Below, one piece after another: positions 3,548 through 36,435 of a stretch of 64,000 nucleotides of DNA. This DNA is from Chloroflexota bacterium (GTDB lineage: Bacteria; Chloroflexota; Anaerolineae; Promineifilales; Promineifilaceae). The DNA is taken from positions 1 to 64,000 of the forward strand of contig JAGNBF010000020.1 of assembly GCA_018004935.1 (NCBI GenBank), read 5' to 3'. Within the stretch, counting starts at the first letter, position 1. Each line of letters starts with the position of its first letter. Made by a program: the position numbers and the translations under genes. A model generated the notes under the pieces. It was not told where the DNA came from. It saw only the letters and a program-made list of their open reading frames with translations, and searched no databases.

Positions 3548-4498
3548 ATGGATTTACTGACTTCAATTTTAAGTATTGCCATTGTTGCCGGAACGTCGTT
3601 AGTATTTGCGACGATTGGGGAAATTTTGACGGAGCGGTCGGGTATTTTGAACCTGGGGGTAGAAGGGATCATGATAATGGGGGCGTTGTCCGCGTTCGCG
3701 GCCGCGTTCCATTCCCAAAGCGCCTGGGTTGGGATATTGGTAGCCATGCTCGTGGGGGGATCATTGGGCCTCGTCCATGCCTTTCTCACCATTACCCTGC
3801 GTGCCGATCAGGTCGTTTCCGGGTTGGCTATGACCTTATTCGGCACAGGTTTGTCTAGCTTCCTGGGCCAACGGCTGGGGCCAGAGGGTGCACCTCTGGT
3901 TGGTATGATTGGGCCACGCTTTGAGGAAATTCAGATCCCTGTTCTGAGCCAGATTCCTTTTTTGGGCGAAACCTTCTTTAACCATGACATTATGGTATAT
4001 CTGATGTACCTGTTTGTTCCGCTGTCCTGGTACTTCCTTTATAAAACTCGCCCTGGCCTGCATCTACGGGCTGTAGGAGAAAGCCCCCAGACCGCTGATG
4101 CGATGGGTGTAGATGTGTTTAATCTGCGTTATCTCTACACCATTGTGGGGGGTATGCTCATCGGGCTGGGGGGAGCACACCTCTCTCTGGCCTATACGCC
4201 GGGCTGGACGGAAAATCTGACCGGCGGCCGCGGCTGGATCGTCATCGCGCTGGTTATTTTTGCCACCTGGGACCCGGCACGGGCTGTCATTGGGGCATTA
4301 CTCTTCGGGGGGGTAAATGCTATTCAATTCCGCCTACAGGCATCGGGGACAACCATTCCTGCCAGCCTGCTTAATATGACACCTTATCTGCTCACCATTA
4401 TTGTCTTGGTGATGATTACCTGGTTTGAATCTTTCCGCAAACGGGTGGGTGCCCCAGCGGCCCTGGGTTTGCCCTATATGCGTGAAGAGCGGGCGTAG
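3548..4498 (+). CDS. ABC transporter permease (YufQ-like, nucleoside type)
   Basis: A 316-residue polytopic membrane protein and the second BPD_transp_2 permease of the system. It begins with a hydrophobic segment and the family-typical run GEILTERSGILNLGVEG (about residues 23-39), which is characteristic of the YufQ/NupQ type. It ends with a short basic tail. It should pair with the permease at 1896-3038 and the ATPase at 337-1896. It lies 509 bp downstream of its partner across a repeat cluster that could attenuate or separately drive its transcription. There is no clear Shine-Dalgarno sequence before ATG 3548. GCGGCCGC at 3698 and 4224 is read as AAA and GGRG respectively. Confidence 0.87.
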   Translation: MDLLTSILSIAIVAGTSLVFATIGEILTERSGILNLGVEGIMIMGALSAFAAAFHSQSAWVGILVAMLVGGSLGLVHAFLTITLRADQVVSGLAMTLFGTGLSSFLGQRLGPEGAPLVGMIGPRFEEIQIPVLSQIPFLGETFFNHDIMVYLMYLFVPLSWYFLYKTRPGLHLRAVGESPQTADAMGVDVFNLRYLYTIVGGMLIGLGGAHLSLAYTPGWTENLTGGRGWIVIALVIFATWDPARAVIGALLFGGVNAIQFRLQASGTTIPASLLNMTPYLLTIIVLVMITWFESFRKRVGAPAALGLPYMREERA

Positions 4499-5295
4499 GT
4501 AGTTAGTAATCGTTCGTTTTTAACTCAGGACTTACGTGCAGTGGCCGGTGTCCCCACCGAGCCACTCACGTTATTTCTGAACGATGACTTAGGATCGAAG
4601 ATTAAATAACCTACGAAACTGCTGTGGCCGGTCTCCTGACCGTGCCACTCTTAGCCAGCAGGTTATTTAATTCTCATTCCTTAGCGGTGGGTCTTGTGCC
4701 TGCCCGTCAAGGACAACTACTAATCATTCTCCTGAATTCCCAAAGGCCCTAATTTAATCAACAAACGGTTAAAACCATAAGACGCCAAACTGGAGTTTAG
4801 AGCTAGAGGAGAGAGCGAGAGGAAACTACTCTAGAAAACTCTCTAGCTCTCGCTCTGAACTCTAAACTCAAGGCCAAAAGCACACTTGAACAATGGCCCA
4901 AGCCGTAGAACAGCCTGATTGTTCATTAAATTTTTAATCGGGTAACGCGTATCTTCTCAATAACTCGGGGTGGATCGGGCCGGTCTCCTGACCGTGACCG
5001 CTGGTGGCTCGGTCAGGAGACCGGCCACAGCCCCGAAATATTGAGATGTTACGGTAACGCCTTCATTGACCCCATCCCCCCTGCCGATTCCCTCGGGAAG
5101 GGGGGAATTCCCATGGGGCATTTTTCGGGGCATTCGCCCCGAAAAATGCCCCTTAGAAAAGTTCCCCGCCCCTGGGGGCGGGGTTAGGGGTGGGGGGATT
5201 CCATTACCTGATTAATTTTTTAAACGACAAAAAGGCTGTTCTACGGCTCAACCCAACTTGTTTTTAGACGCTCACTAAGCTGGGGATAACCTTGT
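4499..5295. repeat. Nested inverted-repeat cluster
   Basis: No gene in about 800 bp between convergent genes. Modules: an R2-like insert (4541-4565) inside a module with TAGTAATCGTTC / GAACGATGACTTA ends (about 4504-4592); an R2 copy (4621-4648) inside a module with AAATAACCT / AGGTTATTT arms; a palindromic GAGTTTAGAGC...CTCTAAACTC element (4792-4871); and a five-level nest at 4901-5248, described separately. Confidence 0.75.
4901..5248. repeat. Five-level nested palindrome
   Basis: The outer arms are AGCCGTAGAACAGCCT (4901-4916) and its exact inverse (5233-5248). The next arms are about 20 bp and imperfect, 4926-4945 with 5204-5223. Inside these sit two units side by side. The first has arms 4955-4970/5031-5046 and encloses a perfect 17-bp inverted pair (4978-4994/5010-5026, the R2 sequence). 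The second is an R6 unit with a perfect 17-bp hairpin core (5115-5152, loop ATTC). Confidence 0.85.
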
Positions 5296-7290
5296 TCACG
5301 ATGCCCTTTCCCCTTTGGGCCGGTAGGCCAGCAAGCGCAAACCATTCAAAGAAACCAGTACGGTACTCCCCTCATGGCCGACAACGCTAAGCGGTAAGGG
5401 CAGACCCCAGCCCAAAACGGATGCCAACAACAGGATAATCATGCCCAGAGCAAAAACGAGGTTTTGTACCAGGGTGCGCCGGGTTTGCTGGCTCAGGCGT
5501 ATCAGATAAGGCAGGTGCTTCAGATCGTCCCCCATCAGGACAATGTCGGCGGTTTCTAGAGCAACATCGGTTCCGGCCGCGCCCATGGCAATGCCGATTG
5601 TGGCCGCCGCCAATGCTGGAGCATCATTTACGCCATCCCCCACCATTGCCACCGGGCCAACTTCCTGGGCCAGCCGTTTGAGGACGTGCATTTTGTCAGC
5701 GGGCATCAATTCGGCATATACCTCGTCAATGCCAGCCTGACGGGCCAGGGCTTCGGCGACACGGGCATTATCTCCGGTGAGCATGACCACCCGTTTAACG
5801 CCGACTTGTTTGAGTTGACGCACTGTCGCGGCCGCGTCCGGGCGCAACACATCAGCAATGCCTAGTACCCCCAAAACCTGAACCCTGTTCTCTGTGGTGG
5901 CCGCAATGATAACGGTGGTTTTTCCTTGTGCCTGCAAACTGTGGAGAACGTCCGCGGCCGCGTCCAGTCCCTTTGTTGTCCATTGGGCAAAGTAACGCTG
6001 GTTGCCAATGGTGATGCGCCGTCCCGCCACAACAGCGCCCACCCCCATGCCCGTTTCGGAATAAAAATCGGTAGCTTCAGGGATAGCCAGGTGACGTTCT
6101 GTGGCCGCGTCTACAATCGCCTGGGCTAAAGGATGTTCTGACTTGACTTCGACTGCGGCCGCGAGGGCCAGGAGTTCCATTTCACTGCCCTGCCAATCTT
6201 GCGTACAAACCCGAATGTCGGTTACTTTAGGTTTGCCAATCGTCAGGGTGCCGGTTTTATCAAACGCCACCACTTTGATCGTAGCCGCCTGCTCCACATA
6301 CGCCCCTCCCTTAAACAGGATACCCCGACGTGCCCCATTACCGATAGCCGAAAGCACCGTTGCCGGAGTGCTGATAACCAGAGCACAGGGCGAGGCCGCT
6401 ACCATCAAAGTCATCGCCCGATAAAAGGTGGGTTGAAACGGTTCATCCAGTAACAAAAGGGGTAGAACAATGGCCGAAAGGGTCATCAGAATAACCCCCA
6501 AGGCATAATATTGCTCCGCTTTTTCGATAAAACGTTGGGTGTGGGCCTTTTCGCTGTGGGCTTCTTCTACCAGTTTGATTAGCCTGGCCAGGGTGGTGTC
6601 GGCGGCCAGGTGGGTGACTTCCACTTCCAGGTGGCCCCGTTGGTTGATGGTTCCAGCCAGGACCATGTCACCCACCCGTTTGCTGACAGGGATAGATTCA
6701 CCGGTAATGGTGGCCTGGTCAACGCTACTTTCACCGGCAATGACTAGCCCATCTAAAGCCAGCCGATCACCCGGGCGGACAATCATCACATCACCCAGGC
6801 AAACTTCTTCCAGCGGTAGTGTGACTGTTTCTTCCTGGCGCTGAATGAGAGCGGTTGTGGGGCGCAAGGCCATGAGGGCACGGATGGCGTTGCGGGTGCG
6901 GTCCAGGGCATATTCTTGCAGAACGTTGGAGAGAGAAAACAGGAATAGGAGCATAGCCCCTTCAAATGGTGCTCCGACCGCGGCCGCGCCCAAAGCCGCC
7001 AGCACCATAAGCATATCTACATCAATGGTTAGTTGGCGTAAGGAAGCCAATCCCGCCTGCAAACCAAAAACGCCCCCGGCAATGTAGGCGATGAGATACA
7101 AAAGCACAATAAGCGGCCGCGAGGCTTCCTGCCGTTCGGCTAACAGGCCACCTAACATGGTTATCAGAGTGACCGCTGTCAGAAGGGCGGGCAGACGTTC
7201 ACCCACCAACCACTCCTGTAGCTGGATGATCCATCGCGGCCGCGTTGATAAACTGTTTGAAGACATCGTAATCATTTTTCCTGTCATCAT
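5296..7290 (-). CDS. P1B-4-type heavy-metal transporting ATPase (Co/Fe/Zn export)
   Basis: A 664-residue P-type ATPase that would export a divalent transition metal. Visible motifs are the actuator TGES (196-199), the phosphorylation site DKTGT with Asp344, GDGVND in the hinge (about 557), the membrane metal-site SPC (300-302) and C-terminal HEGST (639-643). SPC plus HEGxT, with no N-terminal CxxC metal-binding domain, places it in the P1B-4 (CoaT/CtpD-like) subgroup rather than the CPC-type Zn/Cd/Cu pumps. The start overlaps the stop of the TrmB-type regulator gene by four bases (ATGA), so the two form a coupled pair. Metal identity cannot be read from sequence: Co and Fe are known for the subgroup. 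Seven copies of GCGGCCGC lie within it. Confidence 0.88.
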   Translation of the reverse strand: MMTGKMITMSSNSLSTRPRWIIQLQEWLVGERLPALLTAVTLITMLGGLLAERQEASRPLIVLLYLIAYIAGGVFGLQAGLASLRQLTIDVDMLMVLAALGAAAVGAPFEGAMLLFLFSLSNVLQEYALDRTRNAIRALMALRPTTALIQRQEETVTLPLEEVCLGDVMIVRPGDRLALDGLVIAGESSVDQATITGESIPVSKRVGDMVLAGTINQRGHLEVEVTHLAADTTLARLIKLVEEAHSEKAHTQRFIEKAEQYYALGVILMTLSAIVLPLLLLDEPFQPTFYRAMTLMVAASPCALVISTPATVLSAIGNGARRGILFKGGAYVEQAATIKVVAFDKTGTLTIGKPKVTDIRVCTQDWQGSEMELLALAAAVEVKSEHPLAQAIVDAATERHLAIPEATDFYSETGMGVGAVVAGRRITIGNQRYFAQWTTKGLDAAADVLHSLQAQGKTTVIIAATTENRVQVLGVLGIADVLRPDAAATVRQLKQVGVKRVVMLTGDNARVAEALARQAGIDEVYAELMPADKMHVLKRLAQEVGPVAMVGDGVNDAPALAAATIGIAMGAAGTDVALETADIVLMGDDLKHLPYLIRLSQQTRRTLVQNLVFALGMIILLLASVLGWGLPLPLSVVGHEGSTVLVSLNGLRLLAYRPKGERAS

Positions 7291-15023: not shown

Positions 15024-15728
15024 TTCGGACAGGTTTTTCTCCTGTAAAATGCTCTGAATTCGATGTAAAAACCTGGTTTCTAGTTTCGCCAGATTGTACT
15101 AGTAGTTCAACAAACTTATTCCGTCGAATAGCTGTGGCCGGTCTCCTGACCGTGCCACCACCTTCCAACCGACAAATCTTGTCTGTCGCACTACTAGCAG
15201 GTTTAGAAACCAGGTTTTTTCCTACGAAAATGTAGGGCGATTTTGTAAATCGTCCTACAGATTTTCATCCCTCTTGGTGTGCCAAAGGCACATGGGGAAC
15301 TCCTGTAAAACACTCCGAAGCCTGTCAGTATCGTCTCAATAAAGTGGGGTGAAGTTGGTTGAGTCTGTCGAAACCAACGGCCTGCGACAAATTCAGGCCT
15401 CGTTTGCCCCGAAATATTGAGAAGATACACCTGTCAGGTTTAAATCGTAAGCGTTCAGTCATATATATTCAGGCTATGGTTACAAAGGCCGCTGGCCTGG
15501 GGTTTTAGCCCGCAAAGCTCCGTAGGTTTAGCCCGGCGGTCAAACCGCCGGGCAGGATAACTGAACGCTTACTTTCAATCAGGAAGTTATTTTGGGTTTT
15601 TGGGAATACGCGGAGTACAGTCAACCCTTGTGGTTGCCCCACACCGGGCAGGCACAAGGCCAGCCCGTATATCTGGTGTCAACCACCTGAATTCCTAAAG
15701 GCCCGTTATTTTTAGAAAACCACTTAAG
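15024..15728. repeat. Intergenic repeat cluster with nested R8, R2, R1, TIR and R9 modules
   Basis: No gene in about 700 bp. R8 outer arms (16 bp) at 15067-15082 and 15204-15219 enclose an R2 copy (15131-15158). An R1 copy follows directly (about 15220-15305). Next is a TCTCAATA/TATTGAGA module (about 15337-15428) with a GGTTGAGTCTGTCGAAACC core, then a TIR element (15447-15572), then an R9 copy (about 15606-15708). Confidence 0.75.
15447..15572. repeat. TIR element (GTAAGCGTTCAG ends) carrying R4 sequence
   Basis: A 126-bp element with perfect 12-bp inverted ends GTAAGCGTTCAG (15447-15458) and CTGAACGCTTAC (15561-15572). The interior holds an R4 block: GGCCGCTGGCC and a GCCCGGCGGT/ACCGCCGGGC stem. 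The same interior recurs in 21242-21398. No clear target-site duplication and no coding capacity. Confidence 0.8.
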
Positions 15729-35796: not shown

Positions 35797-35875
35797 TACA
35801 AGGCGATTGCCTACTTCCCAAAATGAACCCATCCCCCTAACAGTTCCCCCGAAGGGAGAAAAATCAATTCAGCCA

Positions 35876-36435
35876 TTCTCAATTTAGTATGCGCATGGCG
35901 TTTTTTGTTTTCTCGAGAGGGTGAACAGCCTGAAAGGCTGTTCTACGGCTTGGGTCGTTTCCCCCCGGAAGGGGGGAAAATCAATAATTCTCAATTTGGT
36001 ATGCGCCGGGCGTTTTTTGTTTTCTCGGGAGGGTGAACAGCCTGAAAGGCTGTTCTACGGTTTGGGTCGTTTCTCCCTGGAAGGGGGGGAAATCAATAAT
36101 TCTCAATTTGGTATGCGCCGGGCGTTTTTTGTTTTCTCGGGAGGGTGAACAGCCTGAAAGGCTGTTCTACGGCTTGGGTCGTTTCTCCCTGGAAGGGGGG
36201 AAAATCAATAATTCTCAATTTAGTATGCGCCGGGCGTTTTTTGTTTTCTCGAGAGGGTGAACAGCCTGAAAGGCTGTTCTACGGCTTGGGTCGTTTCCCC
36301 CTGGAAGGGGGGAAAATCAATAATTCTCAATTTGGTATGCGCCGGGCGTTTTTTGTTTTCTCGGGGGGGTGAACAGCCTGAAAGGCTGTTCTACGGCTTG
36401 GGTCGTTTCCCCCCGGAAGGGGGGGAAATCAATTC
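35876..36435. repeat. 112-bp tandem repeat, five copies
   Basis: Five head-to-tail copies begin at 35876, 35988, 36100, 36212 and 36324, each 112 bp and differing at only a few positions. Every unit contains the perfect palindrome GAACAGCCTGAAAGGCTGTTC and a GGAAGGGGGG tract. The word pair AGCCGTAGAACAGCCT and AGGCTGTTCTACGGCT also forms the outer arms of the nest at 4901-5248, so the unit derives from the dispersed vocabulary. Open frames through the array (112 is not a multiple of 3) are not genes. Confidence 0.93.

Follow-up and report, generated by a model that had tools for sequence, protein, structure and literature searches.

Between positions 4901 and 5248 of the window (here, the whole 64,000-nt stretch of DNA that was analysed), inverted repeats are nested within one another, which raises the question of whether the nest is a single complex repeat or the outcome of successive insertions and, in the latter case, by what rule the inserted elements chose their sites. 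The first-pass annotation had favored serial insertion of palindromic modules into each other's loops, through five levels. All the inverted repeats of the nest are present, each where it had been annotated. Folded as single-stranded DNA, the 348-nt nest reaches -118.1 kcal/mol, compared to -55.3 +/- 4.5 kcal/mol for 100 dinucleotide shuffles (z = -14.1), none of which is equally stable; therefore, a chance origin of the nest is excluded.

Features of the nest

4901..4916, + strand: left arm of hairpin D, AGCCGTAGAACAGCCT; outer arm of the nest, perfect 16-bp inverted repeat with 5233-5248
4917..4918, + strand: left half of the D loop, GA; the central loop base, which is duplicated, is the A at 4918
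4919..4948, + strand: left segment of element A, with the left terminal inverted repeat at 4919-4945, TTGTTCATTAAATTTTTAATCGGGTAA (next arms inward, about 27 bp, imperfect, paired with 5204-5230); defined by empty-site paralogues
4941..4948, + strand: first copy of the target-site duplication of B, GGTAACGC, 8 bp, perfect
4949..5052, + strand: element B, a 104-bp MITE with ends GTATCTTCTCAATA / GTAACATCTCAATA; full-length copies elsewhere share the exact termini
4948-4970 / 5031-5053: third arms, 23 nt, 83% complementary
4978..5026, + strand: R2 pair, within B; arms 4978-4994 and 5010-5026, perfect 17 bp
5053..5060, + strand: second copy of the target-site duplication of B, GGTAACGC, 8 bp, perfect
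5061..5230, + strand: right segment of element A, with the right terminal inverted repeat at 5204-5230; defined by empty-site paralogues
5115..5152, + strand: R6 hairpin, beside the R2 arms, in the core of A; arms 5115-5131 and 5136-5152, perfect 17 bp
5231..5232, + strand: right half of the D loop, AA; the central base recurs here as the A at 5231
5233..5248, - strand: right arm of hairpin D, perfect 16-bp partner of 4901-4916
35875..36433, + strand: in the same window, five tandem 112-bp units, each with an uninterrupted D hairpin, GAACAGCCT-GAA-AGGCTGTTC

A repeat finder merged the outer and second arms into a single 45-nt pair with 80% complementarity. Two ORFs converge on the nest, one permease-like (3548-4498, + strand) and the other metal-ATPase-like (5296-7290, - strand), both names being read off the translations. 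Other repeats are found in the same window. Positions 1-80 hold ten copies of a perfect 8-bp tandem repeat, GTTTGCGA, with an inverted copy alongside, and the octamer GCGGCCGC, a HIP1-like dispersed palindrome, occurs 92 times in the 64 kb against 1.9 expected, at sites from 565 to 63985, many of them within coding sequence. The output of a generic split-hairpin scan was dominated by GCGGCCGC arms.

The genome to which the window belongs is an 8.0-Mb draft in 229 contigs, of which 2.05 Mb (26%) was sampled as stretches; the flank statistics of element A given below cover about a quarter of this one draft genome, and the empty sites used are paralogous sites in the same genome.

Element A occupies the loop of an older hairpin

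Element A (4919-4948 plus 5061-5230) is 200 bp long, starts with TTGTTC, finishes with CGACAA, carries 27-bp terminal inverted repeats and has no room for a transposase gene. The imperfect 20-bp arms of the first-pass annotation exist, but they are these transposon ends and extend over 27 bp. The ends of A were detected 319 times in the genome, with no hits for a reversed-pattern control, which corresponds to approximately 160 copies genome-wide. Short, bounded by terminal inverted repeats, lacking a transposase gene and dispersed in many copies, A is a MITE by the usual definition.

The hairpin hosting A, denoted D, is widespread in its uninterrupted form, GAACAGCCT-GAA-AGGCTGTTC, with 71 copies in the 2.05 Mb of this genome (loop variants included, one mismatch per arm tolerated), five of which lie in the window. 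The intact loop is the trinucleotide GAA, whereas in the window, GA precedes and AA follows the element, with GAACAGCCTGA on the left of A and AAAGGCTGTTC on its right. Given the intact copies of D and this split loop, A lies midway within the loop of a repeat that predates it.

Element B and other MITEs with 8-bp duplications

A search of the genome with the whole nest as the query yielded about 40 places matching query positions 169 to ~346; at most of these, the match to query positions 35-64 finishes on the same 8 bases, GGTAACGC, that open query position 169. In the 30-40 copies of A that lack B, the left part joins the right part across a single copy of the 8-bp repeat, and 29 copies without 4949-5060 were inspected base by base. 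Since other copies of A lack this segment and GGTAACGC is doubled here, 4949-5052 is an insertion, B, into A. The 8-bp direct repeats outside the ends of B (4941-4948 identical to 5053-5060) were absent from the first-pass annotation, which had described a 16-bp arm pair around R2; the pair is real, but is part of the 22-23-nt end pair of this second transposon. The entry point of B is the terminal region of A, with an ordinary 8-bp duplication, and not a loop.

Other copies of B in this genome have their own duplications (e.g., ATATTCAT and TTTTCAAG), and a wider scan for B-type ends recovered elements of 100-104 bp with perfect 8-bp duplications at several sites. Matching terminal inverted repeats and 8-bp target-site duplications at independent sites place B among the 8-bp-TSD MITEs: like ordinary ones, it has terminal inverted repeats, a fixed length, 8-bp duplications and no gene, and the sole difference is its R2 cargo. 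B represents a new family within a known kind; its ends begin with GTA and go together with an 8-bp duplication, as in the IS66 group. The R2 pair is found in full-length, 104-bp copies of B; isolated R2 arms are frequent (86 exact 17-mers), with only three exact inverted pairs. Within the 104-bp B subfamily, the R2 pair is a constant component, and its separate insertion is not supported.

Another family, MITE-C, has ends GTAAGCGTTCAG and 8-bp duplications (21 of 59 end pairs are perfect). Its copies, among them L062:3962-4268 and window 15447-15572, fall into numerous length classes between 94 and 477 bp, and some contain further nested modules. The MITE-C at L062 is flanked by the 8-bp duplication ATATTTTT and spans 307 bp, with A2, of 149 bp, at the center of the GCCCGGCGGT hairpin; subtracting 149 from 307 leaves 158 bp, the length of empty MITE-C copies. 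A further family of ~163 bp has ends GCATACTC/GAGTATGC and is bracketed by arms AGGGCGATT and AATCGCCCT (loci L093, L103, L108, L112, L144, and others), and yet another, with ends ACCAAAGGGTGTGTTTCA, lies between GGGCGATTT arms. These two families may also be hairpin-centered, or the arms may belong to the elements themselves.

R6 is part of the core of A

All 74 R6-type hairpins in the 2.05-Mb sample are located in A or in the C-rich core unit of A. Shorter copies of A without R6 look like the outcome of ragged deletions that left remnants of the arms; because of these ragged breakpoints and leftover arm bases, a later insertion of R6 into A was rejected. R6 is a built-in part of the core of A, and its separate insertion is not supported. 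The 4-nt loop of R6 (window 5132-5135) reads either ATTC or GAAT and is flipped in five of 29 copies of A (L014, L016, L017, L028, and L029) although the rest of the element keeps its orientation, as if the tip of the hairpin inverted alone. Many truncated copies of A have their breakpoints at the borders of the C-rich core unit, with an end near element position 166 or a start near positions 36-44 (L131, L106, L064, L067, L070, and L124; L127, L071, and a window copy at ~18100), as if recombination between core units yielded chimeras.

Order of insertion

With empty-site copies available for both the D/A and the A/B junction, the sequence of events can be read as D first, A next and B last, and the nest records at least two successive insertions. 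The dispersed hairpin repeat D with its 3-nt loop GAA came first; A then entered the exact center of this loop, with both arms kept and the central base doubled to leave GA on one side and AA on the other; and B entered last, near the left end of A, with its 8-bp target duplication.

Could the nest instead be one composite repeat, moved or copied as a unit, with the levels being domains of a single element? The entire structure folds as one, and R2 and R6 are indeed fixed parts of B and A, respectively. However, empty-site copies already refute this explanation at the D/A and A/B junctions, A lies in about 24 distinct hairpins, separate target duplications flank B at unrelated sites, and the complete D-A-B nest was found a single time. 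We consider this explanation extremely improbable for the nest as a whole; its remaining scope would be R2 within B and R6 within A. By contrast, we estimate at roughly 80% the probability that the nest consists of stacked non-autonomous DNA transposons, the mobility of A depending on a transposase that would act in trans and recognise hairpins.

The first-pass annotation was thus largely right. Identifying which module interrupts which, the check it had called for, was performed on within-genome copies, and D without A, A without B, and MITE-C without A2 were all found. Entry into a loop holds for A, with the intact copies of D and the copies lacking A or B as evidence, but not for B; D, A and B are independent modules, but R6 and R2 are not; and the insertion order is legible, but for two demonstrated events and not five, as only the D/A and A/B junctions are proven.

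A mostly inserts at the centers of palindromes

The flanks of other A copies also form palindromes across the element. Among 42 full-length copies of A, 71% have a flank complementarity score of at least 7, compared to 1.3% of random positions; when both end types are included, this holds for 30 of 47 copies. The same score is reached at 1.4% of positions 20-300 nt away from A, in 8% of cases when flanks are re-paired between copies of A, and at none of the 32 MITE-C and eight MITE-B sites, for which the dyad was placed at the center of the duplication. Complementarity is 81-87% over the eight positions outside the two loop nucleotides on either side of A, and then drops to the background. Sequence information in the flanks is below 0.9 bit at every position, the targets comprise 24 different arm 7-mers, and insertions occur in either orientation, with no fixed flanking tetranucleotide. 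As judged from these sequences, the target of A is a shape, approximately that of a 9-bp stem closed by a 3-nt loop, whatever the sequence of the arms; the sequences would be compatible with recognition of either an extruded hairpin or a symmetric duplex. About a third of the A sites have a weak palindrome or none, for which decay, rearranged flanks or relaxed specificity are proposed readings.

The palindromic flanks might, conversely, be a consequence of insertion, if ~9 bp of the flank were copied in inverted orientation when A inserted, or subsequently through template switching across its inverted ends. Complementarity does end sharply at ~9-10 bp, as a mechanistic duplication might, but arms of 9-10 bp are usual among the hairpin repeats of this genome, and some arms are far longer than 9 bp. 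Moreover, an uninterrupted paralogous hairpin is present in the sample for 47 of 47 A sites, and numerous hairpins of D and MITE-C lack A and are uninterrupted, which makes this origin of the flanks highly unlikely.

Position of the cut

The base before A is identical to the base after it in 37 of 47 copies (p = 2e-13). An intact loop XYZ often becomes XY before and YZ after the element, as seen with GAA, TTC, CTG, TCT, TTG, GTT and ATT, and at an even palindrome, AACGGTTTTAACCGTT, no base is duplicated. This pattern suggests that the cut in each strand would fall at a constant position with respect to the apex, the even case being represented by one hairpin family. The A site L003, at a D hairpin but with zero duplication, calls for slippage or another mode of insertion.

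A transposase provided in trans would recognise the extruded hairpin, either in a cruciform or single-stranded at a replication fork, and cut both strands at an equal place from the apex, which would produce a stagger of 1 nt at odd loops and 0 at even ones. The enzyme might be a DDE transposase acting like that of IS1272 (IS1182 family), with its gene lost or located outside the sampled part of the draft genome.

Alternatively, insertion might be opportunistic, with hairpin nucleases (e.g., SbcCD) cutting cruciform tips and repair joining excised A ends into the break. Such a route would account for targeting by shape only and for a stagger that follows the loop center, but the exact termini in dozens of copies and the undamaged arms and loop are cleaner than usual end joining, and the 8-bp-TSD MITEs of the same genome do not enter hairpins (0 of 40); we regard this route as unlikely.

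Returning to a dedicated transposase, it is possible, albeit short of probable, that these elements represent a group of Chloroflexota transposons that target purely by hairpin structure and are inserted through cuts at the apex, the duplication being set by the parity of the palindrome (1 bp at odd, 0 at even) and not by a fixed stagger. The products, being palindrome-rich, would then become later targets and build recursive nests. Hairpin targeting helps explain why palindromes within palindromes accumulate in this genome and offers a rule for reading relative insertion order from nested palindromes. With tens of sites in each of two lineages, and intact paralogues revealing the exact position of the cut, the A sites make a natural data set for testing the in vivo formation of cruciforms or single-stranded hairpins and their cleavage at the tip.

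A-type elements in other genomes

An exact search of GTDB contigs for the left end of the type found in this genome gave no hits outside it, whereas relaxed A ends were detected in four other genomes of the same family, most of them in one genome (G022). The end type of the latter was found in 20 stretches from two Chloroflexota MAGs, USCA_metabat.78 and Go_SlAct_bin_68. In a search of other close genomes by DNA similarity, the match to A was limited to the C-rich core. The elements in the related genomes are ~90-240 bp long and have ends related to those of A but different interiors; 17 of 28 lie at palindrome centers, compared to 1% of random positions, and 22 of 28 have a 1-bp duplication. 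Thus, with the same targeting found elsewhere in elements with different interiors, targeting by shape belongs to the element family and not to the repeats of one host. The A family is present in at least two bacterial genera.

Candidates for the mobilizing enzyme

Among the end pairs in the 2.05-Mb sample (26% of the draft genome), no autonomous element with A ends was detected; the only long pair, spanning 3,850 bp, combines a poorly matching end with the right end of a short A copy. In the draft genome G022, none of the listed A-type ends are paired at transposon length, and the ORFs beside unpaired ends in the related genomes are host genes. As an autonomous partner was not found, the class of the transposase is a guess.

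IS1182 is represented in the genome by one broken copy that lacks the ends of A, and the IS1182 elements examined in genomes of the family have other ends; they were rejected as mobilizers of A on these grounds. A 1.77-kb IS1182-family element with perfect ends in a related genome (L277, G030:C481) lies in a 17-bp palindrome (TTTGTGGTGgGCCCCCG / CGGGGGCtCACCACAAA), so hairpin-seeking IS1182 enzymes may occur in the group. CRISPR-like direct repeats (CCCCTCGAAAGGGAGCCGTCCTCTGAGAACT) adjoin the broken IS1182 transposase at ~2180-2440 of L276 (G000:C120). IS110 elements mostly lack terminal inverted repeats, whereas those of A are 27 bp long, and neither of the two IS110 genes in this genome is flanked by A ends; IS110 was likewise rejected.

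A different route would involve movement of A as single-stranded DNA by a Y1 (HUH) transposase of the IS200/IS605 or REP/RAYT kind, with entry into loops at replication forks. Hairpin-loop targets and the near-absence of target duplication fit single-strand chemistry. However, Y1 elements have no long matching terminal inverted repeats, and A has them; a 1-bp duplication is not expected; both orientations are used, with no fixed flanking tetranucleotide; and the sole Y1_Tnp match in the genome is a response-regulator fusion protein and not a RAYT. We judge this route, too, to be improbable. The fusion protein (L061:646-1812, + strand, G000:C65; 388 aa) combines an N-terminus resembling a response regulator with a C-terminal domain resembling Y1_Tnp, which may be a transposase domain that was domesticated.

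Comparison with known mobile elements

To our knowledge, there are very few cases of transposons selecting their targets by DNA shape, IS1272 being one. Like REPINs (RAYT, Y1), A is short, abundant, non-autonomous, palindromic and intergenic, but in contrast to them, it has terminal inverted repeats, enters other palindromes and is not an inverted pair of REPs, and no RAYT was found in this genome. Insertion into extragenic palindromic repeats is shared with IS1397 and ISKpn1 of the IS3 family and IS621 and ISPpu9/ISPa11 of the IS110 family, which insert specifically into REP palindromes (PMC1525189). IS1397, IS621 and ISPpu9, however, each read one REP sequence family, whereas A uses about 24 unrelated arm sequences.

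In the literature on insertion at hairpin centers, nothing closer than IS1272 was found. IS1272/TnSha1, of the IS1182 family in staphylococci, inserts into hairpins or inverted repeats with little if any sequence consensus and in both orientations, produces no conventional target duplication, and was described at three newly inserted sites with stems of 9-12 bp; on its insertion, the hairpin is replaced or deleted, partly or wholly, through blunt cuts, and it carries its own transposase (PMC4923244, PMC5678879). A resembles IS1272 in using a hairpin target regardless of sequence and in both orientations, but differs in that the arms and loop are kept, the central base is usually duplicated, and there is no gene. 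No IS1182 element examined has the ends of A, and A leaves the arms and loop in place, so A is not assigned to IS1182, and its membership in that family is not supported; by analogy, A would work like IS1272, the closest known behavior.
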